Source: Nitrospirota bacterium
Lineage (GTDB): Bacteria > Nitrospirota > Thermodesulfovibrionia > Thermodesulfovibrionales > JdFR-88
Reading direction: 5' to 3'
Assembly: GCA_021789935.1 (NCBI GenBank)
Contig: JAJYIR010000016.1
Location: 1-56,555, forward strand
DNA length: 56,555 bases
The translations under genes and the position numbers were made by a program. The number at the start of each line of letters is the position of its first letter. Position 1 is the stretch's first letter. The notes under the pieces were generated by a model. The model was not told the DNA's origin. It saw only the letters and a program-made list of their open reading frames with translations, and searched no databases. Positions 8,681-49,358 of this stretch are shown in pieces.

Positions 8681-8717
8681 TTGACAAATACATTTAAACA
8701 TCTATATATTTACAGAT
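8681..8717 (+). promoter_or_regulatory. Promoter and palindromic operator of the first arsR gene
   Basis: A perfect -35 TTGACA (8681-8686) is followed after 18 bp by TATATT (8705-8710). Overlapping the -10 and touching the start codon is an 18-bp imperfect palindrome, ATCTATATATTTACAGAT (8700-8717), with 7 of 9 pairs matching. A dyad over the -10 is where ArsR/SmtB repressors usually bind. The start point would lie at or next to the ATG at 8718, so the messenger may be leaderless or nearly so. The binding protein is inferred. Confidence 0.6.
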
Positions 8718-9227
8718 ATGGATGTGAATAACGGTTCAATTAATTTTTCTTCGAAAAAGATCGAGATACTTAAAGCCATCGCCCATCCGGGTAGGCTGAA
8801 AATTCTGGCAGAGCTTATGCAGGGGGTAAAATGCGTTAGCGATTTCGAGGACGCATTCGATATGCGCCAGCCTGTTGTCTCCCATCACCTTTCAATCTTA
8901 AGGCGGTTCGACCTCGTTGACTATTTTGTGGACGGGAGGCTCAAATGCTACTTCCTGAGGAACCCTATGGTCCCCGAAGTCATCGAGGCATTAAGAAAGG
9001 AACACACTGAGGAACTGCCAGCCCCCGCATGCTGCCCTATAACGAAAAAAGGGAAATATCCCGGGGTGCGCGAGAAAAAAATGAAAACCTCTTCTGGAAA
9101 TGGACCGGGGAAAAGACAAGAAATATTGCAATCGAGTGTAGGAGGAAAAAATGGCCGAAAGCAAAAAAATCAAGATCGTCTTCTATCTCAACGAACCAAA
9201 CGGGGGGACGTGAAAGCATTTCATTGA
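8718..9227 (+). CDS. ArsR/SmtB-family metalloregulator, first copy
   Basis: A winged-helix repressor expected to leave its operator when it binds a metal or metalloid. Residues 14-95 form the wHTH domain (LKAIAHPGRLKIL, recognition region MRQPVVSHHLSILRRF, wing VDGRLKCYF). Candidate ligands are Cys39 (VKCVSDF), Cys77 and the Cys105-Cys106 pair, so a soft ion such as As(III) is plausible. It resembles the regulator at 11550 throughout, but its frame runs about 55 residues past where that paralogue stops. The extension is Lys/Ser-rich and overlaps the selenoprotein start by 77 bp in another frame. It is probably autoregulated through the adjacent dyad. Confidence 0.88.
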   Translation: MDVNNGSINFSSKKIEILKAIAHPGRLKILAELMQGVKCVSDFEDAFDMRQPVVSHHLSILRRFDLVDYFVDGRLKCYFLRNPMVPEVIEALRKEHTEELPAPACCPITKKGKYPGVREKKMKTSSGNGPGKRQEILQSSVGGKNGRKQKNQDRLLSQRTKRGDVKAFH

Positions 9228-9477
9228 GATGATGCCCGGTCTGGGCGAAAAATACAGTATCGAAATTGAGGCCATATCCAAACCTCGCAACGACTACCAA
9301 ACGGAAGAATATCGTGCGTCCGGCCTTCCAACAGCCCCGTCAATTGAAGTGAACGGGGAACTGGCGGTAAAGGGAGATATTTCTCAGGATAAACTTGAGG
9401 CGCTTATCTGCCGCCATCTAGGCATCGAACCTCCGGATGTAAAAAAAGGGTTTCTGGGGAATATCTTCGGCGGTTAA
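9151..9477 (+). CDS. Thioredoxin-fold selenoprotein, copy 1 (Sec at UGA 9211-9213)
   Basis: Read with UGA as selenocysteine, the gene encodes 108 residues. It starts at an ATG 7 bp after AGGAGG and ends at TAA 9475-9477. Sec21 follows the first beta strand (KIVFYLN) in the motif GGT-Sec-KHF, where thioredoxin-fold proteins carry their catalytic Cys. A cis-Pro-type segment GLPTAPSIEVNG follows. There is no resolving Cys next to Sec; the only Cys is in LICRHLG. Reading beyond UGA is supported by the intact paralogue with the same UGA, conservation on both sides and the downstream hairpin. It likely acts in selenol redox chemistry or metalloid binding. It matches what I remember of 'SaoT' proteins, unverified. 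A conventional annotation would start late and lose the active site. Confidence 0.9.
9211..9246 (+). promoter_or_regulatory. UGA-Sec codon plus bacterial SECIS-like hairpin, copy 1
   Basis: Twenty bases after the UGA is the stem-loop GCCC-GGTCT-GGGC (9234-9246), a perfect 4-bp stem with a five-base loop. GGUCU is also the apical loop of the well-studied E. coli fdhF SECIS that SelB binds. Distance and loop fit SelB-dependent recoding. The paralogue preserves the hairpin with one G-U pair. Confidence 0.82.
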
Positions 9478-9489
9478 GTAAGCGTTGAA

Positions 9490-9522
9490 ATGGAAAACGC
9501 ACTCTACACGAGAAAAAAATAA
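9490..9522 (+). pseudogene. Ten-codon stump of the following membrane-protein gene
   Basis: ATGGAAAACGCACTCTA here matches the first 17 bases of the gene at 9892 exactly. The frame reads MENALYTRKK and then TAA. It marks the junction of the tandem selenoprotein duplication. I see no upstream ribosome-binding site, and there is no reason to think the peptide is functional. Confidence 0.7.
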
Positions 9523-9551
9523 AGACTCTTATCGAGTGTAAGGAGGCAAAA

Positions 9552-9884
9552 ATGGTCAAAAGCAAAAAACTGAAAGTAGTCTTTTATCTCAACGAGCCCC
9601 TTGGCGGGACGTGAAAACATTTCGTTGCGATGATGCCCGGTCTGGGTAAAAAATATGATATCGAAATTGAGACCATATCCAAACCTCTTGATGACTACCA
9701 TACGGATGAATATTACGCTTCCGGCCTTCCAATAGCTCCATGCATTTTTGTGAACGGGGAAAAAGCGGTAGAAGGCGATATTGCCGAGGACAAACTTGAA
9801 GCGCTTATTTGCAAGCATATGGGCATAGCTCCTGCAGAGGTGAAAAAAAGTTTCCTTGGAAAAATCCTAGGCGGCGGTAAGTAG
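9552..9884 (+). CDS. Thioredoxin-fold selenoprotein, copy 2 (Sec at UGA 9612-9614)
   Basis: This paralogue of the gene at 9151 has 110 residues with UGA read as Sec21. It starts at an ATG after AAGGAGG and ends at TAG 9882-9884. It shares the strand KVVFYLN, the motif GGT-Sec-KHF, the PGLG turn encoded by the SECIS hairpin and the C-terminal LICKHMG. It has one extra Cys, in IAPCIFVNG beside the cis-Pro position, where copy 1 has Ser. The copies may therefore differ in how the selenol is resolved. Conservation through and after UGA in two diverged copies is the best evidence for recoding. SelA/SelB/SelC must be encoded elsewhere. Confidence 0.9.
9612..9647 (+). promoter_or_regulatory. UGA-Sec codon plus bacterial SECIS-like hairpin, copy 2
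   Basis: The stem-loop GCCC-GGTCT-GGGT (9635-9647) lies 20 bases after the UGA, exactly as in copy 1. The last pair is G-U instead of G-C, so the stem is kept while the sequence drifts. The loop GGUCU is identical. Confidence 0.8.
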
Positions 9885-9891
9885 GGCCAAA

Positions 9892-10416
9892 ATGGAAAAC
9901 GCACTCTATTCAGCTAATCTGGCAATTCACATGATTGCGGCAGTATTGTGTGTGGCAGCTCCATTTTATCAGCTCAGATGGGTCAAATTAAGGGGAAAGC
10001 TCGGCTTGCCCTTGATTTATCCATTTGACGGTGTGATGGAAAAGGTCCTGCACTTGCAGGTAAGGCTGTGCTTTTTCTTTATATCCGTTCTGATTGTCAC
10101 GGGTTTTTGTTTCCCTCTCATTCATTATGCATTTCACGGGCAGTTTATGAAGATATCTCCGCTGGCCACCTACGTATTCGGTGCCAAAGTGGTCCTCGCA
10201 TTTATCGGGCTGCTGATCAATGCTCATGGCATCTGGATATTGGACCCTCAGATACAGTCTACTTTCGAGTCTTTTTCTCCTCCGGAACAGCCATCAGACG
10301 AGATTTTGAACCGCTTCTGGAAAGTGCGGACTGCCCGGAAAAATCTCTGCCGGTTCTGTTTTGGATTGGCGCTTATTATTGTCGCCATAACACCAATTTT
10401 GAGGTTTTACAAGTGA
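9892..10416 (+). CDS. Small integral membrane protein, possible heme-binding quinone anchor
   Basis: The 174 residues form about four membrane helices (near 9-27, 56-80, 92-116 and 150-170). Histidines lie in or at the ends of helices: His13, His54, His78, His82 and His112. This would suit a b-type cytochrome, but also a CopD-like metal permease. The stop overlaps the GTG start of the next, HdrD-like gene (GTGA), implying translational coupling. Fe-S proteins of that type often have a small membrane cytochrome partner of the HdrE/NarI kind. I infer an anchor that exchanges electrons with the quinone pool. I do not recognise the family. Confidence 0.75.
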   Translation: MENALYSANLAIHMIAAVLCVAAPFYQLRWVKLRGKLGLPLIYPFDGVMEKVLHLQVRLCFFFISVLIVTGFCFPLIHYAFHGQFMKISPLATYVFGAKVVLAFIGLLINAHGIWILDPQIQSTFESFSPPEQPSDEILNRFWKVRTARKNLCRFCFGLALIIVAITPILRFYK

Positions 10417-11549
10417 CTGAAAATGTTTTAGAAATGAGCGAAACGGAAAAATTGCTGGAATCATGTGACGACTGCGGGGCATGCGTGCGCACCTGCGCGT
10501 TCTTGAAACATTATTGCGACTCTCCAAAGGAATTGGCAAAGCGCTATATGCGTAATTCTCTGGAAAACATGGAAATCCCTTTTTCATGTTTTCTTTGCGG
10601 CCTATGCAAACGCGTTTGCCATCTGAATCTCAGCCCTGGAGACATGTTCCTTGAGATCAGGCGAAGGTCTTTCAGAAACAAGGAAGGCCATCTTCTGCCG
10701 GAAAATTTCGTTTACGACTATGTAAACCCGCGGCTACAAGGCTTGAGAAACAGCCAGGCATTCAGCACTTCCGGCTTCTTGACCTTTGGTAAAAAACCCT
10801 CTGATAACGGCTCTTCCGTCCGGAGAGTTTTTTTCCCAGGATGCTCTCTGCCTTCTTATTCCCCACGGCTGGTCAAAAAAACTTATGAATACCTCGTGCA
10901 GCAGATGCCCGGGACGGGAATAGTCCTTAATTGCTGCGGAAAACCAAGCCATGACGCCGGTGACGAAGTGCGCTTTAACCGGATATTTAACAATACCGTC
11001 CAGCAGTTAAAGGACTTGGGAGTTCAGGAGGTAGTCCTTGCGTGCATCAACTGCCACAAGGTATTCCGTGAGCACAGCGATATCAAATTGACAACGGTCT
11101 ATGAGATATTTGCCAAAGAAGGTCTCCCGTCAACACATCCGGCTGGCAATGGGCTTGTTTCCATCCACGACTCTTGCCCTGCGCGTTATCAGACTGAGAT
11201 CCGGCAGGCTGTAAGAGAGGTTGTCTCGCGCATGGGTTACGATATCCAAGAAATGAGATTCCGCAACGAAATGACACAATGCTGCGGAGCCGGCGGATGT
11301 GGAACATTAGGCAACCCCTCTCTTGCCTCCAGGCATACACAGGCGCGTGCGGCCCAGTCAAAAGGCAAGCTCATTTCATATTGCGCGCACTGCCGCGAGC
11401 GGTTCTCCTCGTTTACCCCTTCGCTGCACCTGCTGGACCTAGTCTTCGGCGCGTTACGCGGCAGCCATCTTAAGGAGCAGCACGATAGCTGGCGGAACTG
11501 GTTTGACAGGTGGTATTTAAAAAAACAGCTCCAGTTCGTTTCGAAATAG
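10413..11549 (+). CDS. HdrD-like Fe-S oxidoreductase (two 4Fe-4S motifs, two CCG domains)
   Basis: From GTG 10413 (GAGG 8 bp upstream, overlapping the previous stop) the protein has 378 residues; ATG 10434 is the alternative. The N-terminus has two ferredoxin-type motifs, Cys18/21/24/28 and Cys59/62/65/69. Two CCG domains follow: PGC with NCCGKP and ACINC, then HDSCPARY with QCCGAGGCG and YCAHC. This is the heterodisulfide reductase B/D and GlpC architecture, where CCG cysteines hold the cluster that cleaves disulfides. With its membrane neighbour it could move electrons between quinones and the disulfide or selenenyl-sulfide state of the selenoproteins. The family is clear; the substrate is inferred from context. 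Confidence 0.88.
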   Translation: MTENVLEMSETEKLLESCDDCGACVRTCAFLKHYCDSPKELAKRYMRNSLENMEIPFSCFLCGLCKRVCHLNLSPGDMFLEIRRRSFRNKEGHLLPENFVYDYVNPRLQGLRNSQAFSTSGFLTFGKKPSDNGSSVRRVFFPGCSLPSYSPRLVKKTYEYLVQQMPGTGIVLNCCGKPSHDAGDEVRFNRIFNNTVQQLKDLGVQEVVLACINCHKVFREHSDIKLTTVYEIFAKEGLPSTHPAGNGLVSIHDSCPARYQTEIRQAVREVVSRMGYDIQEMRFRNEMTQCCGAGGCGTLGNPSLASRHTQARAAQSKGKLISYCAHCRERFSSFTPSLHLLDLVFGALRGSHLKEQHDSWRNWFDRWYLKKQLQFVSK

Positions 11550-11891
11550 ATGGATTCTCTATTTAAAAAAATAGAGGTTTTGAGGGCCATAGCTCATCCT
11601 GTAAGGATAAGGATTCTGGAAGAGCTGACCAAGGAAATGAAGTGCGTCAGCGACTTTGAAAGTTTTTCCGGCATTAACCAGCCTAACTTTTCCCAGCACC
11701 TCTCAGTATTAAGAAAACACGGTGTCGTCGATTGCTACATTGACGGCAGACTCAGATGCTACTTTCTTGTAAACCCGATGTTACCCGAACTCATCGAGGC
11801 CCTCAAAAAAGAACGGACCACATTACCAGCGCCGGCAAGCTGTCAGGTGCACAGGAAGGGCAAATATACAGGGAAAAGTAATAAAAAGTAG
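11550..11891 (+). CDS. ArsR/SmtB-family metalloregulator, second copy
   Basis: The ATG directly follows the TAG of the Fe-S gene. This 113-residue wHTH repressor has AIAHPVRIRIL, a recognition helix near INQPNFSQHLSVLRKH and a wing at IDGRLRCYF. It is paralogous to the regulator at 8718, sharing KCVSDFE and the tail motif KGKYTG. Possible soft-metal ligands are Cys32, Cys62, Cys70 and a Cys near residue 98. Two related sensors in one cluster could respond to different species, such as inorganic versus methylated arsenic. No separate promoter is obvious, so it is probably made from the upstream operon. Confidence 0.88.
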   Translation: MDSLFKKIEVLRAIAHPVRIRILEELTKEMKCVSDFESFSGINQPNFSQHLSVLRKHGVVDCYIDGRLRCYFLVNPMLPELIEALKKERTTLPAPASCQVHRKGKYTGKSNKK

Positions 11892-11906
11892 AAAAACCGG
11901 CATCTG

Positions 11907-12320
11907 ATGGCAAAAAACGTGTCGGTAATGTGCTTTCATGATGAGCTTTGCCAGGTCTACAACTCACTTATGACTGCATTGAGCCTGCTCAGGGAAGGCT
12001 CCAAAGTCACTCTTTTCTTCGGCTCGCGTGGGGTGAACGCCATCCATAAGGATAAGGTAAATCAGTTGAAGTGCCTGCCTGACCGGCCCAAAGAGATTGG
12101 AGATGCGGTAATGAAAAAAATGGAGAAGATGGAGCTGCCTACCGCCGAGGAATTGCTCTTCATGCTTTACAAAGAGGGCGCTCAAATGCTGGCCTGCCCG
12201 CTGAATGTCCCGCTTTTTGGCATGAAAAAGGAAGACTTTGTGGACGGCGTGGAGCTTGCAAATCCGGCAACCTGTTATAAGGATGTCGTGGTTCAGGCGG
12301 ACATGAACCTTACTTTCTAG
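11907..12320 (+). CDS. DsrE/DsrF-like small sulfur-relay protein
   Basis: The 137 residues form an alpha/beta DsrE-type fold: strand VSVMCF, a helix, then KVTLFFGSRGV, and a later strand containing MLACPLNVPLFGM. Cys97 sits where sulfur carriers of this superfamily hold a persulfide; Cys9, Cys15, Cys56 and a late Cys are extra. Such proteins bind or transfer sulfane sulfur (or selenium) and interact with thioredoxin-like partners. It lies 15 bp after the second arsR and 46 bp before the exporter gene. A DsrE-related protein next to a Trx-like selenoprotein recalls 'SaoD', again from memory. The substrate is unknown. Confidence 0.78.
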   Translation: MAKNVSVMCFHDELCQVYNSLMTALSLLREGSKVTLFFGSRGVNAIHKDKVNQLKCLPDRPKEIGDAVMKKMEKMELPTAEELLFMLYKEGAQMLACPLNVPLFGMKKEDFVDGVELANPATCYKDVVVQADMNLTF

Positions 12321-12366
12321 GTGCATCCATTTATTGAAAATAAAAAATGCCGGAAAGGGACCTTGG

Positions 12367-14700
12367 ATGCGTAAATTTTCATTAGTTGAGTTCTCCGTCA
12401 ATCATCCGAAACTGGTTGTGTTTTTGTCTGTGCTTATAACCGCGCTGTTTATGACACAGTTCCCCAAGGTCAGGATCGACACAAACCCAAAGCACATGCT
12501 TCCGGCTACATCCGATGTGCGCGTGTGGAACAACAAGGTGGAAAAGACGTTCGGCCTTTACAAGGACGTGATAGTCGTAGGCGTCCGGAATGAAAAGGGC
12601 GTCCTGAATACGGCCACTCTGGCCTCCATGCAGAGGATAACGGACCGGATACTCGGTCTGAAAGGGGTTGCCGCGAGGGATGTTTCCAGTTTCGAGACCA
12701 TAGACAATGTCACGTCGGAGGGCGGTACGCTAAAAGTGGGGCCGCTCATGCCGCAGGCGCCAAAGACCGCTGGCGGCATTAACGACTTAAAGGAGCAGCT
12801 TTTTGGAAACCCGCTTTATATCGGGCGCATTATCTCAAAAGACGGCAAGACTGCCGCTATATACGTGCCGCTCGAAGAGGGCGCAAACGGCAAACAGATA
12901 GCCGATGCCATAAGAAAGATAATAAAAGAGGTGGACGGGCAAAAAGGGGGCGATGAATACTATATCGCCGGCGACCCCGTGGCCAGGGACACTTTCGGTG
13001 CGGAGATGTTCAAGCTGATGGCAGTCTTTGCGCCCATTGCCATGATGGTGATGTTCCTCATCAGGTATCTGATGTTCAGGGACCTCTTCCTCAGTATCAC
13101 GCTCATGATGGACGCCATGATGAGCATAATCTGGAGCATGGGGCTCCTTATAGGGCTTGGGTTCCCCGTCCATATTATGAGTTCCATGGCCCCGGTGTTC
13201 CTGATGGCGATTGCGACCGACAGCATGCACATCTTCAATGAATTCTATTTCCGCTACCGGGAGAAAAAGGACAAGAAAACCGCGATAATAGAAACCATGA
13301 ACGCCGTAAGCCGGCCGGTGCGGAATACGGCGCTGGCGACGGCGGCGGGTTTTGCCGTTCTCATGTTCATGCACATAGTCCCGGTCAGGATTTTTGGCGG
13401 CCTGATTGCCTTCGGCACGATTTCATTACGGGTACTTAGTTTCAGTTTCATTCCCGCGATGTTCACATTTGTTAAGGACAAGAACTTGGAAAAAATAGCG
13501 CGCTCCGAAGATATCGATACAGGCAGGACCGCGAGATTTTTGAAAAAACTTGCCGGGATCGGCATCCATAAACCGGCGGCAACTGTCATCATCGGCCTCC
13601 TGCTCTTTGCTACAGCGGTTGCCGGGATATCAAAGACCGTTGTCAACAACAACCTGGTCGAATGGTTCAAGAAAGGAAGCCCCATCCGCGTGGCGGATAC
13701 GGTAATCAACGGCTCCCTTGGGGGCACGTCTCTTGGCTACATAGTCGCGATTTCCAATAAGGACGGTTATATGAAAAGCCCTGAAGCAGTTCGTTATTTA
13801 GAGGGGCTTCAAAGAGATTTGGAGAAATTGCCGGTTGTCGGGAAGACCACTTCGGTTGCGGATTACGTGAAGCGGATAAATTATGTGCTTCACGGGGACG
13901 ACCCCAAATATTATGCGGTGCCGCCCACAGAGCGGATGATAGGGCAATATCTCTTTCTTTTTTCCATGTCAGCGAAGCCCTCGGACCTCGACAACGTGGT
14001 CGATTATCCTTTCAAGAAGGCCAACATCTGGGTGCAGCTGAAGACGTGGAACGCGCGGGCGATGAGGGAGGTGATAAATGAGGTGGGCCGGTACAAGGCT
14101 GCCCATCCCACCCCGATGGATTTCAAACCCGCCGGGATCGCCTACTTCAACCTGGTCTGGAACAACGAGGTGCTCTGGGACATGGTGAAGGGGTTTTGCC
14201 TTGCCCTGATCGTGGTATTCGCCATCCTGGCCTACGATTTCCACTCCGTGAAATGGGCTCTTATAGGATACATGCCGCTTCTTTTTACGATAGTCCTCAT
14301 TTACGGGGTTATCGGGTTTAGCGGGAAAGACTTCGATATGCCTATATCGGTGCTCTCCACGCTCTCTCTGGGCATGGCGGTGGATTTCGCCATTCACTTT
14401 GTAAGCAGGTTCAGGCGGCGCCTGGCCGAGAAAAACGCGGGGGGCGGAAGGCCGGGGAAGGAACTGATAACAGACTCGCTCCTATGGACGGCAGCAAGAC
14501 CGGGTAAGGGCATCATGCGTAACGCCGTGCTCTTTGCCTCCGCCTTTTCTGTGATGCTCTTCGCCCCGCTCACGCCCTATGTCACCGTGGGCGCGTTTAT
14601 CGTAAGCATGATGCTGCTTAGCTCTCTTTTAACAATGATATATCTTCCAGCGCTGGTAACACTGTTCAGCGGCTGGCTTTTCGATGGAGGTCGACAATGA
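12367..14700 (+). CDS. RND exporter, MMPL/HAE3-like
   Basis: The 777-residue proton-driven exporter has the two-fold RND layout: a first membrane helix (about 10-30), a periplasmic loop, a block of six helices with the SSD-like segment ALATAAGFAVLMFMHIVP, a second helix and loop, and a final helix block with SLGMAVDFAIHFVSRFRRR. It is shorter than AcrB-type pumps, as in the HAE3 branch, whose cargoes are often lipids or hydrophobic compounds. The frame opens earlier at TTG 12334, but ATG 12367 gives the usual short cytoplasmic start. It overlaps the next gene by ATGA. The cargo may be an organometalloid or lipid (inference). Confidence 0.9.
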   Translation: MRKFSLVEFSVNHPKLVVFLSVLITALFMTQFPKVRIDTNPKHMLPATSDVRVWNNKVEKTFGLYKDVIVVGVRNEKGVLNTATLASMQRITDRILGLKGVAARDVSSFETIDNVTSEGGTLKVGPLMPQAPKTAGGINDLKEQLFGNPLYIGRIISKDGKTAAIYVPLEEGANGKQIADAIRKIIKEVDGQKGGDEYYIAGDPVARDTFGAEMFKLMAVFAPIAMMVMFLIRYLMFRDLFLSITLMMDAMMSIIWSMGLLIGLGFPVHIMSSMAPVFLMAIATDSMHIFNEFYFRYREKKDKKTAIIETMNAVSRPVRNTALATAAGFAVLMFMHIVPVRIFGGLIAFGTISLRVLSFSFIPAMFTFVKDKNLEKIARSEDIDTGRTARFLKKLAGIGIHKPAATVIIGLLLFATAVAGISKTVVNNNLVEWFKKGSPIRVADTVINGSLGGTSLGYIVAISNKDGYMKSPEAVRYLEGLQRDLEKLPVVGKTTSVADYVKRINYVLHGDDPKYYAVPPTERMIGQYLFLFSMSAKPSDLDNVVDYPFKKANIWVQLKTWNARAMREVINEVGRYKAAHPTPMDFKPAGIAYFNLVWNNEVLWDMVKGFCLALIVVFAILAYDFHSVKWALIGYMPLLFTIVLIYGVIGFSGKDFDMPISVLSTLSLGMAVDFAIHFVSRFRRRLAEKNAGGGRPGKELITDSLLWTAARPGKGIMRNAVLFASAFSVMLFAPLTPYVTVGAFIVSMMLLSSLLTMIYLPALVTLFSGWLFDGGRQ

Positions 14701-15479
14701 AGAGATTGATTTTGGCCCTGGTCATAGCCCTGCTCCCCTGCAGCGCTTTCGCGATGACGGCAGAGCAGATAATGACAAGATCTTATGAAGCCTTCTACTA
14801 TCCCGGCAAGGATTTCAAGGCCAGGATGATTATGACGCTTGTGAGCGCGGGCGGGCAGCAGAGGATAAGGGAGCTTACAATGTTACGGAAAAACTATCCG
14901 GGCGGCAGTCAGAAATATTTCATATATTTTTTCCAGCCGGCCGACGTAAAGGACATGACTTATATGGTTTACAAGTACCCGGACAAAGACAGCGACAGAT
15001 GGCTCTACATCCCGTCCCTGAACATGGTAAGAAGGATAGCGGCACAGGACAAGAGATCGAGCTTCGTCGGTTCGGACTTCTCGTATGAGGACGTCTCCGG
15101 CAGAAACGTAAATGAGGACGTCCATACCCTGGTGAGGGAAGAAAAGCTCGGGGCCAGGGACTGCTATGTTGTCAAAAGCATTCCCAAAGCGGCGGACGTC
15201 GAATTCAGCTACAAACTCTCCTGGGTTGATAAGGCCAGCTATCTGCCGCTGAAGGAGCAATATTACGATAGAAGAGGTGAACTCCTTAAAGTCTTTACCG
15301 CGGATGAAGTGAAGACTGTAAAAGGTTTCCCAACCATCACGAAAAGGACAATGAAAAACGTGCAGAGCGGCCACTCTACGGTGATCACGTTTGAAAAAAC
15401 CGACTACAATCTTGGCCTGAGCGATAGTCTTTTTTCAGAGCGGTTCATGAAGCAGCCGCCTCAGAAGTGGATAGAGTGA
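14697..15479 (+). CDS. LolA-like outer-membrane lipoprotein-sorting protein
   Basis: The 260-residue protein starts with a clear signal peptide (KRLILALVIALLPCSAFA). The mature part has the LolA/LppX-like half-barrel pattern, e.g. RWLYIPSLNMVRRI, SYEDVSGRNV and YKLSWVDKASYLPL. Proteins of this type are regularly paired with HAE3/MMPL exporters and act as periplasmic carriers of hydrophobic cargo. The start overlaps the exporter stop (ATGA), and the next gene overlaps this stop, so the three are translated as a unit. Assignment is by family pattern and context. Confidence 0.85.
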   Translation: MKRLILALVIALLPCSAFAMTAEQIMTRSYEAFYYPGKDFKARMIMTLVSAGGQQRIRELTMLRKNYPGGSQKYFIYFFQPADVKDMTYMVYKYPDKDSDRWLYIPSLNMVRRIAAQDKRSSFVGSDFSYEDVSGRNVNEDVHTLVREEKLGARDCYVVKSIPKAADVEFSYKLSWVDKASYLPLKEQYYDRRGELLKVFTADEVKTVKGFPTITKRTMKNVQSGHSTVITFEKTDYNLGLSDSLFSERFMKQPPQKWIE

Positions 15480-16735
15480 GATTTTTTTTGTTTCTGCCAG
15501 CTCTGGCGATGCTTTTTGTCTTTGCCGGAAGCGCCCTGGCAATAAATATAGCGAAAGATATCACACTGGATGGTTTTTTGCAGGGGAATTATTCCGTCGA
15601 CACCGCCAGGGCAAACCCGGACGGCGATTATTTCAAACTCGCGGAAGAGCGTCTTCAACTTAGGCTTGAGGCGAACAAGGACCCTTTCCGCATATTCATA
15701 AAAAGCGATTTCTTCCACGACTGGATCGGCGGCAGGGATTTCGATTCGGAGCTACGCGAGGGATTTGTAGAATACACATCGGATAAATGGGATGCCAGAA
15801 TCGGCAGGCAGATAATAACGTGGGGCGTTGGAGATCTCGTATTCATAAACGACGTGTTCCCCAAGGATTATGACGCATTTTTTTCGGGCAGACCGCTTGA
15901 ATATTTGAAAAAGGGTGTGGACGGCGCGAAGTTTGGCGTTTATCCGGGCTTTGCCAGTTTCGATGTCGTAGTTATCCCCTTTTTCACGCCGGATAAATTC
16001 CCATCCCCTGACAGGTTCTGGCTGTTTGATCCGATGCCTCAGATAACGGATAGGCCAGAGGAAGAGCCGCAAACGACTTTTAAAAACACGGAGGTAGCCC
16101 TTCGCGCTTACCGGCAATTGGCGGGCTTTGATACATCCGTCTATTTCTACCGGGGGTTTTTCAGGCAGCCCTCCGCTATACCTGATAACCCGCTTGCTCC
16201 CACAAAGCTCACTCTGACCTTTCCTGAGCTGTCGGTCTATGGCGCAAGCGCGCAGGGCAACGCATTTGGCGGGGTCTTATCCCTGGAGGCTGGCTATTAT
16301 GATTCAAGACAGAACGAAAGCGGGACAAACCCATTTCTGACAAACTCACAGATACGCTTTTTAGCGGGCTATCAGAGGCAGCCCTGGACGGATTTCACTG
16401 CCGGTATCCAGTATTATGTTGAATACATGCAAAACTATTCGGAGTATCTGGCGAACCTGCCGCCTGGCTTCCCAATCGTCCCAAAATGGAACGACCTATT
16501 TAGCCTGCGGCTTACTCAAATGCTCCGGCACCAGACGCTTAAACTCTCCTGGTTTATGTTCTACAGCCCGGCGGTTGGGGATTTCCTGCTGAATCCCGAG
16601 ATCAAATATAATTTTACAGACAGTATATGGGCCGCCATTGGCAGCAATATCTTTGGCGGCGGCAACAAGGCAAGCCAGTTCGGACAGCTTGCCAGGGATA
16701 ATAATACCTATATCCAGGTCAGATATGAGTTCTGA
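15476..16735 (+). CDS. Outer-membrane beta-barrel, DUF1302-like
   Basis: I chose GTG 15476, which overlaps the previous stop as GTGA and gives the signal peptide RFFLFLPALAMLFVFAGSALA; GTG 15467 is possible. The roughly 419-residue mature protein shows alternating hydrophobic strands, aromatic girdle residues and the C-terminal YEF typical of outer-membrane barrels. The motif DARIGRQIITWGVGDLVFINDVF resembles DUF1302-type proteins, which often accompany RND/LolA-like pairs. It probably provides the outer-membrane exit for the export system. The specific cargo is unknown. Confidence 0.83.
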   Translation: MRFFLFLPALAMLFVFAGSALAINIAKDITLDGFLQGNYSVDTARANPDGDYFKLAEERLQLRLEANKDPFRIFIKSDFFHDWIGGRDFDSELREGFVEYTSDKWDARIGRQIITWGVGDLVFINDVFPKDYDAFFSGRPLEYLKKGVDGAKFGVYPGFASFDVVVIPFFTPDKFPSPDRFWLFDPMPQITDRPEEEPQTTFKNTEVALRAYRQLAGFDTSVYFYRGFFRQPSAIPDNPLAPTKLTLTFPELSVYGASAQGNAFGGVLSLEAGYYDSRQNESGTNPFLTNSQIRFLAGYQRQPWTDFTAGIQYYVEYMQNYSEYLANLPPGFPIVPKWNDLFSLRLTQMLRHQTLKLSWFMFYSPAVGDFLLNPEIKYNFTDSIWAAIGSNIFGGGNKASQFGQLARDNNTYIQVRYEF

Positions 16736-16784
16736 ACGGGAAACCTGATAAACCTGAGCGCTGCGAGAGAGAGGTAAAGACCCG

Positions 16785-17375
16785 ATGATTATTGAAGTGA
16801 TTTCCAGGTGGATAGAACTCATCTCACTGATTTTTCTGACAGGAAAAGTTCTCTGCCGCCTCTGGGTTATCGCGCCTGTCCGGAGCGGAACTCTGAATGA
16901 AACGGCCTTTCCCAACATGTGGCGGCTGTTCGGCCCTGCTATAGGCGTAATGGCGGCAGCGGCCACTCTGTGCCTGCTGGCACGAGTCGCGGAAACTAGA
17001 TTCATATCTATTATGGCCGCCGTGAATTTGCTTCCTGTGGCCGTCCAAACTCACATCGGGCGTGTCTGGCTGATCCGCATTTCACTTCTGGCGCTGCTGG
17101 CCGTTATATTCCTGGGCTTAAGAGGGAAGCGCCGTGAAGGGCGCACGGCGCTTCTTACAATGCTCCTTATTATACTGCTTGTCTCAATGACCGAAAGCGC
17201 ATATGGGCGCGCGGCGTACAAGGGTGATTTCAGCGCCCGCGAGATAATGGACTGGCTTCATCTCCTGGGGGCTATGGTGTGGGGGGGCGGTCTTTTCGTG
17301 CTTTCCCTATTCATTCTTCCCCAGATCATAAAGGCTGATCGCTTATTGCCGGAATTGCCCGGAGATTTTCATTGA
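16785..17375 (+). CDS. CopD-like membrane protein, N-terminal part (frameshifted)
   Basis: These 196 residues give about five membrane helices and end at a TGA. The helix with WLHLLGAMVWGGGLFVLSLF is the His/Trp-rich helix of CopD-family proteins, which act in copper uptake or related membrane redox. The usual next section, SIAVGVMAITAAYNFSVY, is encoded immediately downstream in another frame. One added T in the TTTT run near 17367 would join them (DFSLMAS). I read this as one gene of about 335 codons broken by a one-base loss, or by a sequencing error. The TGA is unlikely to be Sec because the same frame soon hits TAG. Confidence 0.7.
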   Translation: MIIEVISRWIELISLIFLTGKVLCRLWVIAPVRSGTLNETAFPNMWRLFGPAIGVMAAAATLCLLARVAETRFISIMAAVNLLPVAVQTHIGRVWLIRISLLALLAVIFLGLRGKRREGRTALLTMLLIILLVSMTESAYGRAAYKGDFSAREIMDWLHLLGAMVWGGGLFVLSLFILPQIIKADRLLPELPGDFH

Positions 17376-17791
17376 TGGCAAGCATCGCGGTAGGAGTTAT
17401 GGCGATTACTGCGGCCTACAACTTTTCAGTATATGTGGGCGGCTATTCCGAGCTCATCGGAACGGCTTACGGGCTGACGGTCTTGGCAAAAATCATCCCC
17501 TTTCTTGCCATTTTTGCCCTGGGCGCGTTCAACAGATACATTTGCGCCCTGCTTTTAGATGAGTGGGCAGGTTTACCCCCGCTGAGCCGTAGTTTGATAG
17601 ACCGCTTTGCTGCTCGTTTTTTCCCGCTATTCATTAAAAACCAGAACGGCATCAACGGGAGCGGCTATTGCATTGCGCTCAGGTTCAAGCGCCTGGTAAG
17701 AATAGAGGCATTTCTTGTTATAACTCTATTGTTATGCACGAGCCTTCTGGGTTATGAAGTGCCGTTGCCTGTCATGCATACATGGAATTGA
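17372..17791 (+). CDS. CopD-like membrane protein, C-terminal part (frameshifted)
   Basis: This open frame carries the last helices of the CopD-like protein begun at 16785: the TAAYNFSVYVGGYSELIGTAYGLTVLAK segment and the FALGAFNRYI helix are recognisable CopD C-terminal features. Its TTG/ATG start overlaps the TGA of the first part, so it could be made by re-initiation or ribosomal frameshifting. A point deletion is simpler. It ends with VPLPVMHTWN. Whether the halves assemble is unknown. Confidence 0.68.
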   Translation: MMASIAVGVMAITAAYNFSVYVGGYSELIGTAYGLTVLAKIIPFLAIFALGAFNRYICALLLDEWAGLPPLSRSLIDRFAARFFPLFIKNQNGINGSGYCIALRFKRLVRIEAFLVITLLLCTSLLGYEVPLPVMHTWN

Positions 17792-17899: not shown

Positions 17900-18253
17900 A
17901 TGAGAAAAGTACCCATCCTAAGTCTTTTGTTTCTGCTCATTGTTTCGGTCCTTTTGCCAGGCTGCGCCAGCAACCGTTTCATAGTCTACAAGGACGGCAA
18001 GGCCTACTATTTCGCAAGCAAGGGGGAAGGGCTTTACAAGATGCTCTGCGAGAGCGGCGATTTTAAAAGGGTGCTTGCCAGTTCTTCCATGCCGGATGGC
18101 ACGAAAAAAGAGCTTTACCAATACAACTGCGTGGAGCCTTCGGCCAACAAGGTGCAAGCTTTATATGTAGAGCTTACCCCGGACCAGAGGAAGAGTTTAA
18201 GGGAGGCCTTTGAAAAAGAGGGATACGGCATAAACCACTCGCTCTGCAGCTGA
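17900..18253 (+). CDS. Small lipoprotein, possible C-terminal Sec extension
   Basis: The ATG follows AGGAG. A signal peptide ends in the lipobox LLPGC, so the protein should be acylated and held in the envelope. The mature part of about 97 residues is hydrophilic, with Cys in KMLCESG and YNCVEPS and a last Cys in HSLCS just before the TGA. I know no family for it. After the TGA come GAC and TAA in frame, and 16 nt after the TGA is the hairpin GCGCC-CGTGT-GGCGC. If that TGA were Sec, the protein would end Cys-Ser-Sec-Asp, a plausible redox tail. This is speculative, and the stop reading is the default. Confidence 0.75.
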   Translation: MRKVPILSLLFLLIVSVLLPGCASNRFIVYKDGKAYYFASKGEGLYKMLCESGDFKRVLASSSMPDGTKKELYQYNCVEPSANKVQALYVELTPDQRKSLREAFEKEGYGINHSLCS

Positions 18254-18335: not shown

Positions 18336-20330
18336 ATGGCAGCTCAGGATATAGCCTGGAAAGACAGGCAGATCAGGAAAATAAAAACTGGCACTATCCA
18401 GATAAATTTAGGCAACAGGTGCAACCAGAAATGCGCGCATTGCCATATAGGCGCATCCCCTCAGGGGACCAAAAACATGGACCATCACACTGCGGCCAGA
18501 ATTCTGGAGAAACTCTCCACTTTAGGAGTGGAGAACATCGAGTTTACCGGCGGCACTCCCGAACTCAACCCTAACCTTGCTATGCTTATAGAAGGTCTTT
18601 CCAGGCAGAGCAAGAAAATAGCCGTAAGGACCAGTCTTACAGTGCTCGACCTCCCCGAATACTCCTTTTTTATCGGTTTATATGAAAAAAACAAGGTCAA
18701 GCTGATTGCGTCCCTCCCCTCCGCCTTTGAAGACCTTACAGATGCGCAAAGGGGAAAAGGGGTCTTTAAAAAAAGTTTGAACGTGCTTAGGAAACTGAAC
18801 TCAATCGGTTATGGAACGGGCAGGCTTGCCCTGGACCTGGTCTATAACCCGGTTGGCGGTTATCTTCCTCCCGCACAGCCGCAAGTGGAAAAGGAATACC
18901 GGCAGATGCTCAGGGAAATGCATGATATTTCTTTCGACAACCTGATTACCATCGTCAACTCTCCGATTACAAGGTTCAAAAATTATCTTTTAAGCGAAGA
19001 CAAGCTCGACGACTACATGCGGCTTTTGGTGGACAATTTCAATCCTGAGACCTTGGAGAAGATCATGTGCAGATACCAGGTCTCGGTCGATTACCGGGGT
19101 CATATTTATGACTGCGATTTCAACCTTGCCCTGGGCATACGGACAAAGGGTTACGATGACAAGAAATTCTGGGAGATCGCTTTTAATGATTTCAGCCCGG
19201 AGATAACCTGTGATGTCCACTGTTATGCGTGTACGGTGAATGCCGGAAGCAGTTGCCGGGGTGTTCTTATAAAGGAAGAGACAAAAACCGGTTTTGACGC
19301 CATGGAGAATGCAAAAAAATATTATGGGGAAACTCTTCATGGTACGTCCGATCTAAAGACGTCCGCTTGCTGTACGCCGGATTCACTTCCAGCCCATGTG
19401 AAAAAAGTGCTTCCTTATATAGCGGAAGAGATAAAAATAAAATACTACGGTTGTGGCTCGCCGATACCCGTTGTCCTTGATGGCTTAAGGGTACTTGATC
19501 TGGGATGTGGGACCGGCAGGGACACTTATGTGATGTCCAAACTTGTTGGGCAGAATGGGTTTGTGTACGGGCTGGACATGACGGAAAAACAACTGGAAGT
19601 GGCCCGCAGATACATTCCGGAGCAGACCGCAAGGTTCGGATACGAGAGGCCAAACGTGCGGTTCATTCAGGACTACATCGAGAATGCGGGTGAGCATTTC
19701 AAGGACGGGACGCTAGATCTGATAATCTCCAACTGCGTGATAAACCTGGTTGAAGACAAAGAAAGCATTATCAAACAGGTACGGAGGATGCTCAAGCCGG
19801 GAGGCGAATTTTACTTTTCTGACGTATATTCGGACAGGCGGATTCCGGCAGGTCTGAAGTCGGACCCCGTCCTTCACGGGGAATGCCTTGGAGGGGCGCT
19901 TTATTACAAGGATTTCGAGAGAATGGCCAGGAGGGCCGGCTTTGCCGATCCGAGGATAGTATCCAAAAGAATCATCGACATAACGAACGAGGAGATTAAA
20001 AATCTCACGGGCAATATTACCTTTTATTCCATCACCTATCGTCTTTGGAAACTGGAGAGGCTTGAAGACGCCTGCGAAGAATACGGGCACGTAGCTGTTT
20101 ACAAAGGCGGGATTGCCGAATCTCCTTTCGGGTTCGAGCTTGACTCTTCTCACGTATTCGAGAAAAACCTGTCAGTGAAGGTCTGTGGCAATACGGCCCT
20201 GATGCTGTCAAAAACCAGGTTTCGTGATTACTTCCGGATCACTGGCGGTTTCGACGAGCATTTTGGCGAGTTCAAGGACTGCGGAAGCCCGGCAAAGGAA
20301 AAGGAAGATACTGGGAGTTGTGGCTGCTGA
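18336..20330 (+). CDS. Radical-SAM ArsS / arsenite methyltransferase ArsM fusion
   Basis: One 664-residue protein joins two arsenosugar enzymes that are usually separate. Residues 1-320 are ArsS-like: radical-SAM cluster motif Cys29/33/36 (CNQKCAHCHIGASP) and the C-terminal ArsS signature HCYACTVNAGSSCRG. ArsS attaches a 5'-deoxyadenosyl group to dimethylarsenite. Residues 323-664 are ArsM-like: GTSDLKTSACCTP with As(III)-binding Cys345-Cys346, SAM motif VLDLGCGTGRDTY, further Cys in ISNCVINL and HGECLGG, and the ArsM tail VCGNTALML. ArsM methylates As(III) using AdoMet. The fusion would couple methylation and adenosylation. GGAAGGAG precedes the ATG. It leads a tightly packed gene string. 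Confidence 0.93.
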   Translation: MAAQDIAWKDRQIRKIKTGTIQINLGNRCNQKCAHCHIGASPQGTKNMDHHTAARILEKLSTLGVENIEFTGGTPELNPNLAMLIEGLSRQSKKIAVRTSLTVLDLPEYSFFIGLYEKNKVKLIASLPSAFEDLTDAQRGKGVFKKSLNVLRKLNSIGYGTGRLALDLVYNPVGGYLPPAQPQVEKEYRQMLREMHDISFDNLITIVNSPITRFKNYLLSEDKLDDYMRLLVDNFNPETLEKIMCRYQVSVDYRGHIYDCDFNLALGIRTKGYDDKKFWEIAFNDFSPEITCDVHCYACTVNAGSSCRGVLIKEETKTGFDAMENAKKYYGETLHGTSDLKTSACCTPDSLPAHVKKVLPYIAEEIKIKYYGCGSPIPVVLDGLRVLDLGCGTGRDTYVMSKLVGQNGFVYGLDMTEKQLEVARRYIPEQTARFGYERPNVRFIQDYIENAGEHFKDGTLDLIISNCVINLVEDKESIIKQVRRMLKPGGEFYFSDVYSDRRIPAGLKSDPVLHGECLGGALYYKDFERMARRAGFADPRIVSKRIIDITNEEIKNLTGNITFYSITYRLWKLERLEDACEEYGHVAVYKGGIAESPFGFELDSSHVFEKNLSVKVCGNTALMLSKTRFRDYFRITGGFDEHFGEFKDCGSPAKEKEDTGSCGC

Positions 20331-20346
20331 CCATATCAGATAGGCA

Positions 20347-21066
20347 ATGAGGCTTCCGGCTTTCTTAAGAAACAGGAGAACAAGAAAGAAGATCATAATT
20401 GCGCTCATAATCATTGTCATTATCATTGGGATAAGGGTCTTTGGGGCCGGGCGGTACATCAACTTTGAGGAAATAAGGAGAAACAGGGAAAGTCTTAGGG
20501 CGCTGGTGAGCAAAAGATATTTCCTTTTCGTGACCGGATATATGCTTACCTATTTACTGACGGCTGCTTTTGCCGTGCCGCTTGTCTCCGAGCCCCTCAC
20601 CCTGGCAGGCGGGCTAATGTTCGGGGCCCTGCCGGGTGCCATCTATACAAACATAGGGGCGACCGCAGGGGCAAGCATGGCCTTTCTTTTTTCAAGGTAT
20701 CTTCTGGGCGGCTGGATCCAGCAAAGGTTCCAGTTCCGTCTGGTCAGCCTGAACAGGGAAATTGAAAGGAACGGATATCGCTATCTGCTTTCCTTGAGGC
20801 TGACGCCGCTGGTCTCTTTTACTCTTGTGGACTTGCTTGCCGGGATCACGAAGATCCCGCTAAAGACGTTCATCTGGACTACATCGGTGGGTATTTTGCC
20901 CGCTTCATTGATCTATTCTTATGCGGGAAGCCGCCTGCGCTATATCGACTCGGCCATGGACATATTCTCACAAAGGATGTTGATCGCCCTTGCCCTGCTC
21001 GCGCTATTGCCTGTCCTGCCCGTAATCTACAGGAAGGTAACGGGACGCACAAAGCCCATAACATGA
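20347..21066 (+). CDS. TVP38/TMEM64 (DedA-like, VTT domain) membrane protein
   Basis: The 239-residue protein has an N-terminal helix after a basic start, then the VTT-domain pattern: FAVPLVSEPLTLAGGLMFG, GATAGASMAFLFSRYLLG and LRLTPLVSFTLVDLLAGIT, with re-entrant loops and several helices. The family includes proton-coupled lipid or small-molecule transporters. Members recur in arsenosugar clusters, where they may move a biosynthetic intermediate or product. It starts 16 bp after the fusion gene, and its stop overlaps the next ATG (ATGA). Confidence 0.88.
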   Translation: MRLPAFLRNRRTRKKIIIALIIIVIIIGIRVFGAGRYINFEEIRRNRESLRALVSKRYFLFVTGYMLTYLLTAAFAVPLVSEPLTLAGGLMFGALPGAIYTNIGATAGASMAFLFSRYLLGGWIQQRFQFRLVSLNREIERNGYRYLLSLRLTPLVSFTLVDLLAGITKIPLKTFIWTTSVGILPASLIYSYAGSRLRYIDSAMDIFSQRMLIALALLALLPVLPVIYRKVTGRTKPIT

Positions 21067-21722
21067 TGAAAATGACCTCCGTAAATCAGCTTCTTGTATT
21101 CATGAAATACCCTGAAGAAGGCAAAGTAAAAACGCGCCTTGCCAGCGTGCTTGACGTAAAATCCGCACTGGTCCTATACAAGCGTATGGTCACCTGCCTA
21201 ATGAAGAAACTGGACGAACCGGGACAACCCTTCTTCACAAGGATTTTTTATTACCCGGCTGAACGGGGAGCGGACATGAAAAACTGGCTTGGAAGCACGC
21301 GGGCATATATGCCACAAAGAGGCGATGACTTGGGACTAAGAATGGAAAACGCGTTTCTGGATGCGTTTGCCGGAAGTTGTGAAAAGGCCATCATAATCGG
21401 ATGCGATGTCCCCGATTTAAGCGCAGAGTTGATCATTGAGGCTTTCGACCGGCTGGAAGGTCGTGATGCCGTGATTGGCCCCTCCATGGATGGCGGATAT
21501 TACCTCGTGGGGTTCAGACGTGAGAAATTCGCCCCACAAATATTCTGTGGAATCAAGTGGGGAGAAAGCGATGTATTCCAAAAGACAATGGAAAAATTCC
21601 CGCCGGGCTTCAAAATACACATCCTGCCGCGACTGCGTGATTTGGACACATTTGAAGACCTGATGGCCTTTTCCAAAAAACCGTCTGGGAGAGGGCTTCA
21701 AATCGGAGAGTTATTACGGTGA
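21063..21722 (+). CDS. TIGR04282-type arsenosugar glycosyltransferase (DUF2064)
   Basis: This 219-residue nucleotide-diphospho-sugar transferase-like protein shows FMKYPEEGKVKTRLA, GCDVPDLSAELI and GPSMDGGYYLVGF, the marks of the DUF2064/TIGR04282 family found with arsenosugar biosynthesis genes. It probably helps turn the deoxyadenosyl-arsenical into a glycosylated arsenosugar. It overlaps both neighbours by 4 bp, indicating coupled translation. The exact donor and acceptor cannot be read from sequence. Confidence 0.9.
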   Translation: MMKMTSVNQLLVFMKYPEEGKVKTRLASVLDVKSALVLYKRMVTCLMKKLDEPGQPFFTRIFYYPAERGADMKNWLGSTRAYMPQRGDDLGLRMENAFLDAFAGSCEKAIIIGCDVPDLSAELIIEAFDRLEGRDAVIGPSMDGGYYLVGFRREKFAPQIFCGIKWGESDVFQKTMEKFPPGFKIHILPRLRDLDTFEDLMAFSKKPSGRGLQIGELLR

Positions 21723-22459
21723 GAGAGTCTATTTCCTTCATAGTGCCGGTCCTGCGGGAGTCCGAAAGAATAAACGGGCTCATTGAGCATGTCATGTCGC
21801 TGTCTGGCGGGGAAGACTTCGAAATAGTAGTTGTTGACGGAAACGAGGAGAGGGACACCTTGAAAAGCATTGCTTACGATGGCATCTTGAAAATCTCCTC
21901 TCCTCAAGGGCGCGGGATACAGATGAACGCCGGCGCCCAGGCAGCAAAAGGCCGGATACTTGTCTTTCTGCATGCTGACACCCTGCTTCCAAATGGCGCT
22001 CTTGACAAGATACTGGAGACCCTGGAAACGCACGATGCCGGGGCCTTCAGCATGGGATATGACACCAGGGGCCCCATTTTAGATATGCTTGCACTTGCTT
22101 CCCGCGTAAGAGCCCGTTTTACAGGTATTCCCTATGGGGATCAGGCCATCTTCATGAAAAGGGAATACTTCTTTGCAATTGGCGGATACAGGGAAATTCC
22201 CCTTATGGAAGACGTTGAGCTTATGGACCGCATAAAAAGGGCCGGCGGGAATATCTGCATTCTGAAAGACCGGGCCATGACCTCCCCAAGGAAGATGCTG
22301 GCCGATGGCATTCTATTTTCAGTAATAAGGAACCAGGCCATAAAGACGTTTTATCTCCTCGGTGCAGACCCTAAGTGGCTGGCTAGGCTGTATTATGGCA
22401 CCCGCCTGTACTACGAATCAGATAACGGCGAAAAACGAAAAGGAGAAACGAATGAGTAA
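21719..22459 (+). CDS. TIGR04283-type arsenosugar glycosyltransferase (GT2)
   Basis: The gene starts at a GTG overlapping the previous stop (GTGA). The 246-residue GT-A-fold protein has the N-terminal strand SISFIVPVLRESERI, VVDGNEE, FLHADTLLPNG (DxD-like HAD) and the acceptor region GIPYGDQAIFMKREYF with LMEDVELMDRIKR. This is the pattern of TIGR04283 GT2 enzymes that accompany TIGR04282 in arsenosugar loci. It is the last intact gene of the module. A dead AIPR gene begins immediately after its TAA. Confidence 0.92.
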   Translation: MRESISFIVPVLRESERINGLIEHVMSLSGGEDFEIVVVDGNEERDTLKSIAYDGILKISSPQGRGIQMNAGAQAAKGRILVFLHADTLLPNGALDKILETLETHDAGAFSMGYDTRGPILDMLALASRVRARFTGIPYGDQAIFMKREYFFAIGGYREIPLMEDVELMDRIKRAGGNICILKDRAMTSPRKMLADGILFSVIRNQAIKTFYLLGADPKWLARLYYGTRLYYESDNGEKRKGETNE

Positions 22460-23758: not shown

Positions 23759-23788
23759 TTGACTTTATTTCCGGCATTTGATTAACTA
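23759..23788 (+). promoter_or_regulatory. Candidate sigma-70 promoter of the crcB unit
   Basis: TTGACT (23759-23764), 18 bp spacer, TAACTA (23783-23788). The expected start near 23795 coincides with the first base of the fluoride riboswitch, which supports the call. The region from 23596 to 23758 shows no other feature. Confidence 0.55.
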
Positions 23789-23794
23789 TCTCAT

Positions 23795-23865
23795 CGGGCG
23801 ATGGAGTTCGCCCCATTAGATGAAACCGCCTTCTTCTGCAAGCGGAAAAGGCTGATGACTCCTAC
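23795..23865 (+). ncRNA. Fluoride riboswitch (crcB motif)
   Basis: The conserved parts are all present: GGGCGATGGAGTTCGCCC (23796-23813), AAACCGCC (23823-23830) and GGCTGATGACTCCTAC (23850-23865). GGAGT in the first loop can pair with ACTCC at the 3' end to form the fluoride-binding pseudoknot. The motif leads directly into a terminator hairpin and then crcB, the fluoride exporter gene it typically controls. Confidence 0.95.
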
Positions 23866-23899
23866 CCTGAAGGTTGTTTAACAAGGGCAGGGGTTTTTT
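23864..23899 (+). terminator. Intrinsic terminator, expression platform of the riboswitch
   Basis: ACCCTG (23864-23869) can pair with CAGGGGT (23888-23894, one bulged G), followed by a run of six T. The hairpin uses the last bases of the riboswitch core. Fluoride binding should therefore compete with terminator formation and switch transcription on. Confidence 0.75.
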
Positions 23900-48022: not shown

Positions 48023-48098
48023 TGAGCCCTAACCGCCTCGTTAAAAACTCCGTGAAAGAGCGCGAGGCTTAGTGTTTTTGTTTTCGCATCATTCCCGC

Positions 48099-49334: not shown

Positions 49335-49358
49335 ATCATGTCCCCTTTACTGCCGCCT

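Follow-up and report, generated by a model that had tools for sequence, protein, structure and literature searches.

An ArsR-led cluster of TsoC, DsrE and RND genes in Nitrospirota and its possible role in handling reactive sulfur and selenium

Results

The locus

We analysed a stretch of 56,555 nt from a Nitrospirota bacterium (JdFR-88; assembly GCA_021789935.1, contig JAJYIR010000016.1, positions 1-56,555, forward strand), hereafter the window, in which an initial annotation had proposed a redox-and-export system built around selenoproteins and ArsR sensors. Re-annotation of the block at 8681-17791 from sequence and profile libraries (NCBIfam, Pfam) recovered every gene named there in one run on the plus strand: two ArsR regulators, two thioredoxin-like proteins with predicted selenocysteine (Sec), a small membrane protein, an HdrD-like protein, a DsrE protein, an RND transporter with LolA-like and barrel partners, and a CopD-like protein. 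The gaps between genes from tsoC1 to the CopD gene range from -13 to +74 bp, and the same-strand run extends beyond 17791 to about 22459.

The leading gene encodes ArsR1 (8718-9227), identified by profile matches; its open reading frame (ORF) continues past the stop of its homologues and overlaps tsoC1, in a different frame, by 77 bp. Of at least two kinds of ArsR in the related clusters described below, the leading one is type A, a group that shares CVSDF, (K/R)CYFL and usually CCPxTKKGxYPG, with a vicinal CC near the C-terminus in most members. ArsR1 shows these motifs (as CVSDF, KCYFL and CCPxTKKGxYPG), and ArsR2 (11550-11891) belongs to the same subfamily. Immediately 5′ of the ATG of ArsR1 is a predicted promoter/operator (8681-8717), consisting of a -35 box, TTGACA (8681-8686), and an imperfect AT-rich dyad, ATCTATATATTTACAGAT (8700-8717). 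In relatives, the regions upstream of type A ArsR genes contain a TTGACAA -35 box and then an AT-rich, TTTGCAT-type dyad, and the octamer CTTGACAA occurs in 21 of 42 such regions compared to at most 5 in mononucleotide shuffles, the sequences being related to one another. In the window, this dyad is represented by a degenerate copy at 8700-8717, within the only full promoter/operator match there (0.05 expected). A type A ArsR would bind this copy and thereby regulate its own expression.

Two genes with an in-frame UGA follow, tsoC1 (9151-9477; UGA at 9211-9213) and its tandem copy tsoC2 (9552-9884; UGA at 9612-9614). Read-through yields proteins of 108 and 110 residues, each with Sec at residue 21, which match the NCBIfam TsoC family NF045708 (123.8 bits, 2e-36, and 115.8 bits, 6.4e-34; cut-off 45 bits) and carry its NEPxGxxU motif (NEPNGGTU, NEPLGGTU). 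An AlphaFold2 model of TsoC (pLDDT 83) adopts a thioredoxin-like fold in which helix 1 opens with Sec21 and a strand follows an invariant proline; Foldseek matched it to thioredoxins at probability 1.00 with modest TM-scores (0.5-0.6). Relatives of TsoC also gave matches, below the cut-off, to the MTH895/ArsE thioredoxin-like family. TsoC has the features by which selenoproteins are recognised, namely an in-frame UGA, Cys homologues and Sec machinery in the genome: homologues across Nitrospirota have either UGA or Cys at one common position, and the window genome encodes SelB above cut-off. By our own threshold, SelB was present in 31 of 33 genomes with the UGA form, compared to 5 of 11 with the Cys form. 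Where a bSECIS hairpin would be expected, both tsoC genes have a small stem with a GGUCU loop ~22 nt past the UGA, the folding energy of which is not significantly better than that of shuffles. The UGA is consistent with Sec. Between the two genes (9477-9552), a short ATGGAAAACGCACTCTAC after tsoC1 copies the beginning of the gene that encodes the membrane protein (at 9892), which suggests tandem duplication of tsoC together with the start of the following gene. At a locus from a Hainich groundwater bacterium (L150:2016-2267), a TsoC of the window type (NEPNGKTU) is encoded immediately upstream of the DsrE orthologue.

The membrane protein (9892-10416; 174 residues, four predicted helices) had been called His-rich; the protein is there, and that description was generous, as H13 and H82 are the sole histidines conserved in all three homologues compared. 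It matched no cytochrome b model in the profile search, its AlphaFold2 model (pLDDT 68) gave no informative fold match, and the fold prediction was too weak for us to assign it a cytochrome character. The HdrD-like gene (10413-11549) starts with GTG at 10413, a 4-bp overlap with the preceding stop, and encodes an Fe-S protein with two 4Fe-4S motifs and two CCG domains (CCG and Fer4 Pfam matches). It matches NF045663 ("diclust_near_Sec", named for its proximity to Sec genes) at 259.5 bits, below the cut-off of 530, and lacks the N-terminal flavin domain of that family.

Downstream of ArsR2 are the DsrE orthologue (11907-12320; Pfam DrsE_2, 5.5e-16), with a candidate carrier Cys97 in LACPLN that is invariant in the DsrE alignment, and an RND transporter (12367-14700; PF03176, TIGR00921). 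Profile searches placed the transporter in the MMPL/HAE3 type and not the CusA/CzcA type, and we rejected a CusA-type metal pump. A separate CusA/CzcA-like RND set with a membrane-fusion protein and an outer-membrane factor could be read from the ORFs on the minus strand at 44750-50714. The RND gene of the block is followed by genes for a periplasmic LolA-like protein (14697-15479; PF17131, 5e-64; PDB relatives 9tp6 and 3bk5), a predicted outer-membrane barrel (15467-16735; weak DUF1302 match, E 0.095, in a conserved position) and a CopD-like membrane protein (16785-17791; pieces of NF033808/PF05425). The last spans two frames in the window and forms one 408-residue ORF in a congener (locus L089); thus, the CopD gene of the window is either frameshifted or mis-sequenced.

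Conservation in other genomes

We compared the block with 396 Nitrospirota genomes, and read the neighbourhoods of 60 regions and of 60 loci from a scan of named genomes. TsoC was found in 45 of the 396 genomes (above cut-off in 20), and the DsrE orthologue group in about 48, at about 62-90% identity, with all other full DsrE homologues at 39% or less. The two occurred together in 20 genomes, where about 5.5 were expected (Fisher p = 3.5e-9), and also co-occurred within dsrA+ genomes (p = 1.8e-4), neither value being corrected for phylogeny. Among genomes with the DsrE orthologue, 45 of 48 have dsrA. Beyond Nitrospirota, the named-genome scan found DsrE relatives in Hydrogenophilales/Thiobacillus/Sulfuricella, in Actinomycetota and on single contigs of metagenome-assembled genomes (MAGs) labelled Nitrospinota and Euryarchaeota; most other cluster genes are missing from the proteobacterial loci.

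Removal of duplicates by DsrE sequence left 48 distinct runs, with the typical order ArsR-(TsoC)-DsrE/F/H-like-SQR-like-(ArsR)-DsrE-RND-LolA-barrel; since many loci are limited by their contigs, the counts are lower bounds. An RND gene was present in 36 of these runs and was the next gene after DsrE in 25. SQR-like genes were equally frequent (36), followed by ArsR (34), DsrF with DsrH (29), the full RND, LolA and barrel set (25), TsoC and TauE (15 each), a methyltransferase (12), rhodanese and YedE (11 each), SelD (3) and ArsS-ArsM (2). Profiles in the clusters matched DsrE, TusC/DsrF, TusB/DsrH, SelD, rhodanese, YedE and TauE, and the flavoprotein is SQR-III-like, below its cut-off; TusA was not noticed on reading by eye, with no profile used. 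We rejected chance adjacency of TsoC, DsrE and RND, based on the co-occurrence statistics and the shared runs. Conservation of the neighbourhood, the test that the initial annotation had set for itself, held for ArsR, TsoC, DsrE, RND, LolA-like and barrel genes; it failed for HdrD, which is limited to one genus.

The clusters differ between ArsR/TsoC and DsrE, an interval filled in the window by the membrane protein and HdrD and in most other clusters by DsrEFH and the SQR-like flavoprotein. Neither a DsrF nor an SQR orthologue was found in a search of the window genome (estimated 100% complete), the sole SQR relative being encoded elsewhere and 25% identical. Close homologues of the window HdrD are confined to the genus of the window among the loci examined. 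Homologues of the membrane protein are present in 6 of 396 genomes, and it occurs without HdrD in the DsrE clusters of loci L101, L138, L142 and L179; thus, the two are not an obligate pair. The quinone-linked redox step that had been placed in this pair is made more likely by the occurrence of an SQR-like flavoprotein, or of a DsrM/DsrK-like pair, in such clusters elsewhere; the pairing itself does not generalise. The DsrM/DsrK-like pair was seen at locus L102: its first member is a membrane protein that scores 71.5 bits to DsrM (cut-off 300), and its second, a DsrK/TfrB-like CCG protein, is encoded with an in-frame UGA. This UGA (SCPUC, residue 242) recurs in three loci (L102:14210-15424, L057:2843-4048, L155:16406-17617) and is Cys in L185, the HdrD of which is 19% identical to that of the window. 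This pattern points to a Sec-containing HdrD-like protein in L102-type clusters, with the apparent Sec at a CCG-domain site, and the DsrM-like/HdrD-like pair may give these clusters another membrane/HdrD module, independent of the first.

Directly after the block, on the same strand, are genes for a small lipoprotein (17900-18253; also beside ArsS-ArsM in L089), a fusion of an ArsS radical SAM protein with an ArsM methyltransferase (18336-20330; TIGR04167, 350.4 bits, cut-off 300, plus an arsenite methyltransferase domain), and a VTT-domain protein (Pfam VTT) with two glycosyltransferases named for arsenosugars (20347-22459; TIGR04282 and TIGR04283, both above curated cut-offs). These genes are a genuine arsenic link, lying beyond the end of the region initially annotated. 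The fusion follows the barrel and CopD genes in L089 and is also downstream in L129; among the loci examined, arsenosugar genes are tied to the DsrE-type cluster only in the genus of the window. Partners in the other clusters are sulfur and selenium genes (SelD, rhodanese, YedE, TauE), not arsenic genes, and none of their proteins was recognised, on reading by eye with hidden Markov model checks on a subset, as an efflux protein, reductase or lyase for arsenic or mercury. The metalloid specificity initially proposed is not supported for the clusters in general, and it is plausible that arsenic is a local extension of the cluster and not its common theme. The sole Rfam match in the window is a fluoride riboswitch (23788-23871), upstream of a CrcB-like gene.

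Comparison with known systems

Haft and Tolstoy reportedly described the Tso, or "three selenoprotein operon", in 2025. The block resembles Tso, as set out under that name in a review (PMC13188914), in having TsoC above cut-off and an ArsR-type regulator, and some relatives have rhodanese/CcdA-type partners; in contrast, its HdrD, DsrE and RND arm are additional to the components named in that review. We rejected a canonical Tso operon, defined by TsoA and TsoB with TsoC and TsoR. A search for Tso components gave no match to TsoA, with no positive control responding, and the best TsoB match in the window genome scored 59.4 bits (cut-off 805), this match (L189) reading as an ordinary CcdA-type gene; the two ArsR proteins of the block score 40.2 and 26.4 bits to TsoR (cut-off 115).

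The nearest published sulfur module is DsrEFH type II/YTD (PMC13293266, PMC12998232). The likeness is that, among dissimilatory sulfur bacteria (Nitrospirota included), the related clusters encode YedE and DsrE/F/H-like proteins, the latter recognised by DsrE, TusC/DsrF and TusB/DsrH profiles. In contrast, the window has no DsrEFH, and the clusters contain an SQR-like protein, ArsR, TsoC and RND. The module is defined by syntenic dsrEFH with tusA and yedE, and the window genome has no DsrF orthologue; a term search of PMC13293266 turned up no mention of RND, ArsR or selen-.

The partial likeness to the selenocysteine-assisted organometal (SAO) system suggested in the initial annotation comes down to small proteins containing Sec, for which action on soft elements has been proposed. 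The MerB-like lyase SaoL had no match in the window genome, with no positive control responding, and no block protein scored above cut-off for SAO families in NCBIfam, SaoL being the only one searched for individually. As in DsrMK/HdrDE, an HdrD-type CCG protein adjoins a membrane protein, and the L102 pair scores to DsrM and DsrK/TfrB models; unlike in DsrMK/HdrDE, the membrane protein of the window lacks a cytochrome b match, and its HdrD is nearest to NF045663 minus the flavin half. The genes after the block resemble arsenosugar biosynthesis (ArsS/ArsM, TIGR04282/04283), having the fusion, both glycosyltransferases and a TIGR04167 score above 300 bits. The literature searched contained no description of the cluster as a unit; since the primary Tso paper was outside that literature, we do not claim priority for it.

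Discussion

The reading we favour, to which we give an even chance, is that the cluster is an ArsR-autoregulated operon by which dissimilatory sulfur bacteria handle and export reactive sulfur or selenium, in the form of persulfide, polysulfide or selenide. It is related to the Tso operon but falls outside its definition, and sensing and handling of reactive sulfur or selenium is probably a better description than a dedicated arsenic system. We infer the substrate, the direction of electron flow, the quinone link, the sensing chemistry and the RND cargo of the block as follows. Cysteines of a type A ArsR would react with a chalcogen or soft metalloid, releasing its own promoter; TsoC, as a selenol protein of thioredoxin fold, would take up or reduce the bound chalcogen, with electrons exchanged through a quinone-linked module (here the membrane protein and HdrD, elsewhere the SQR-like protein with DsrEFH). 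DsrE would carry sulfur or selenium on Cys97, and the RND/LolA/barrel set would transport a lipid or a hydrophobic product in the direction of the outer membrane. DsrE is of the sulfur-carrier type, and the initial claim that it handles sulfur or selenium is probably right.

Several points weigh against this reading. In the window, the block is followed by ArsS-ArsM and arsenosugar genes, such that arsenic may be the actual stress there, and TsoC is present in only 15 of 48 DsrE runs. To our knowledge, no connection between RND, LolA or barrel proteins and sulfur chemistry is recognised. Sulfur oxidation for energy metabolism would be expected to involve many of these genes as well, and the function proposed for the block derives from gene content and sequence. 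Moreover, almost all genomes of these lineages have SelB, and almost all have dsrA, as seen in the contingency tables, and thus co-occurrence at the level of genomes cannot separate a sulfur from a selenium role.

A reading close to the initial one is that the block instead detoxifies metalloids: the selenol of TsoC would capture As(III) or methylarsenicals, ArsR would sense them, and ArsS-ArsM would convert and the RND set export them. The position of the fusion and both glycosyltransferases immediately downstream, the fusion in the congener, the vicinal CC of most type A ArsRs and the MTH895/ArsE match of TsoC relatives, below cut-off as it is, all argue for this. Nevertheless, we think it unlikely, since ArsS-ArsM is in only 2 of 48 DsrE runs, an efflux protein, reductase or lyase for arsenic or mercury was not recognised by eye in the other clusters, the neighbours are sulfur and selenium genes, and the RND is of the MMPL/HAE3 and not the CusA/CzcA type. 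A role in energy metabolism, as a branch of sulfur oxidation or disproportionation of the DsrEFH/YTD kind that feeds a reversed Dsr pathway through HdrD/membrane or SQR-like quinone links, strikes us as a shade less probable again. It would explain the DsrEFH-like, SQR-like, YedE and rhodanese genes, dsrA in 45 of 48 DsrE genomes and DsrE relatives in Thiobacillus/Sulfuricella MAGs, and a DsrEFH type II proposal has been published (PMC13293266); ArsR control and the RND/LolA/barrel arm fit stress better, no TusA was noticed in the clusters (by eye, not by profile), and orthologues of DsrF and SQR are missing from the window genome.

HAE3/MMPL and LolA-like families are associated with hydrophobic cargo, as would be expected if the RND/LolA/barrel genes were an independent operon for lipid or hydrophobe transport that only travels with sulfur genes. 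We regard this as improbable, because an RND gene belongs to 36 of the 48 distinct DsrE runs, directly following DsrE in 25 of them, and does so in several families. Finally, the operon for reactive sulfur and selenium could be of a more specialised kind: a dedicated ArsR-regulated selenol system for reactive selenium/sulfur stress, undescribed as a unit, with its own envelope-spanning RND arm and interchangeable quinone-linked modules (SQR-like with DsrEFH, membrane protein/HdrD, or DsrM-like with the apparent Sec-containing HdrD). We regard this version, including its modules, as possible but less likely than not.

For TsoC, an uncharacterised selenoprotein family, these results provide a conserved context with sulfur-carrier, quinone-redox and transport partners, such that its role is now testable, and the analysis also draws attention to a protein of the HdrD/DsrK type in which a CCG-domain site apparently holds Sec. 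They further suggest that, in Nitrospirota with dsrA, the SQR-like and DsrEFH-like genes, apparently for sulfur oxidation, may in part function in the handling of stress under ArsR control.

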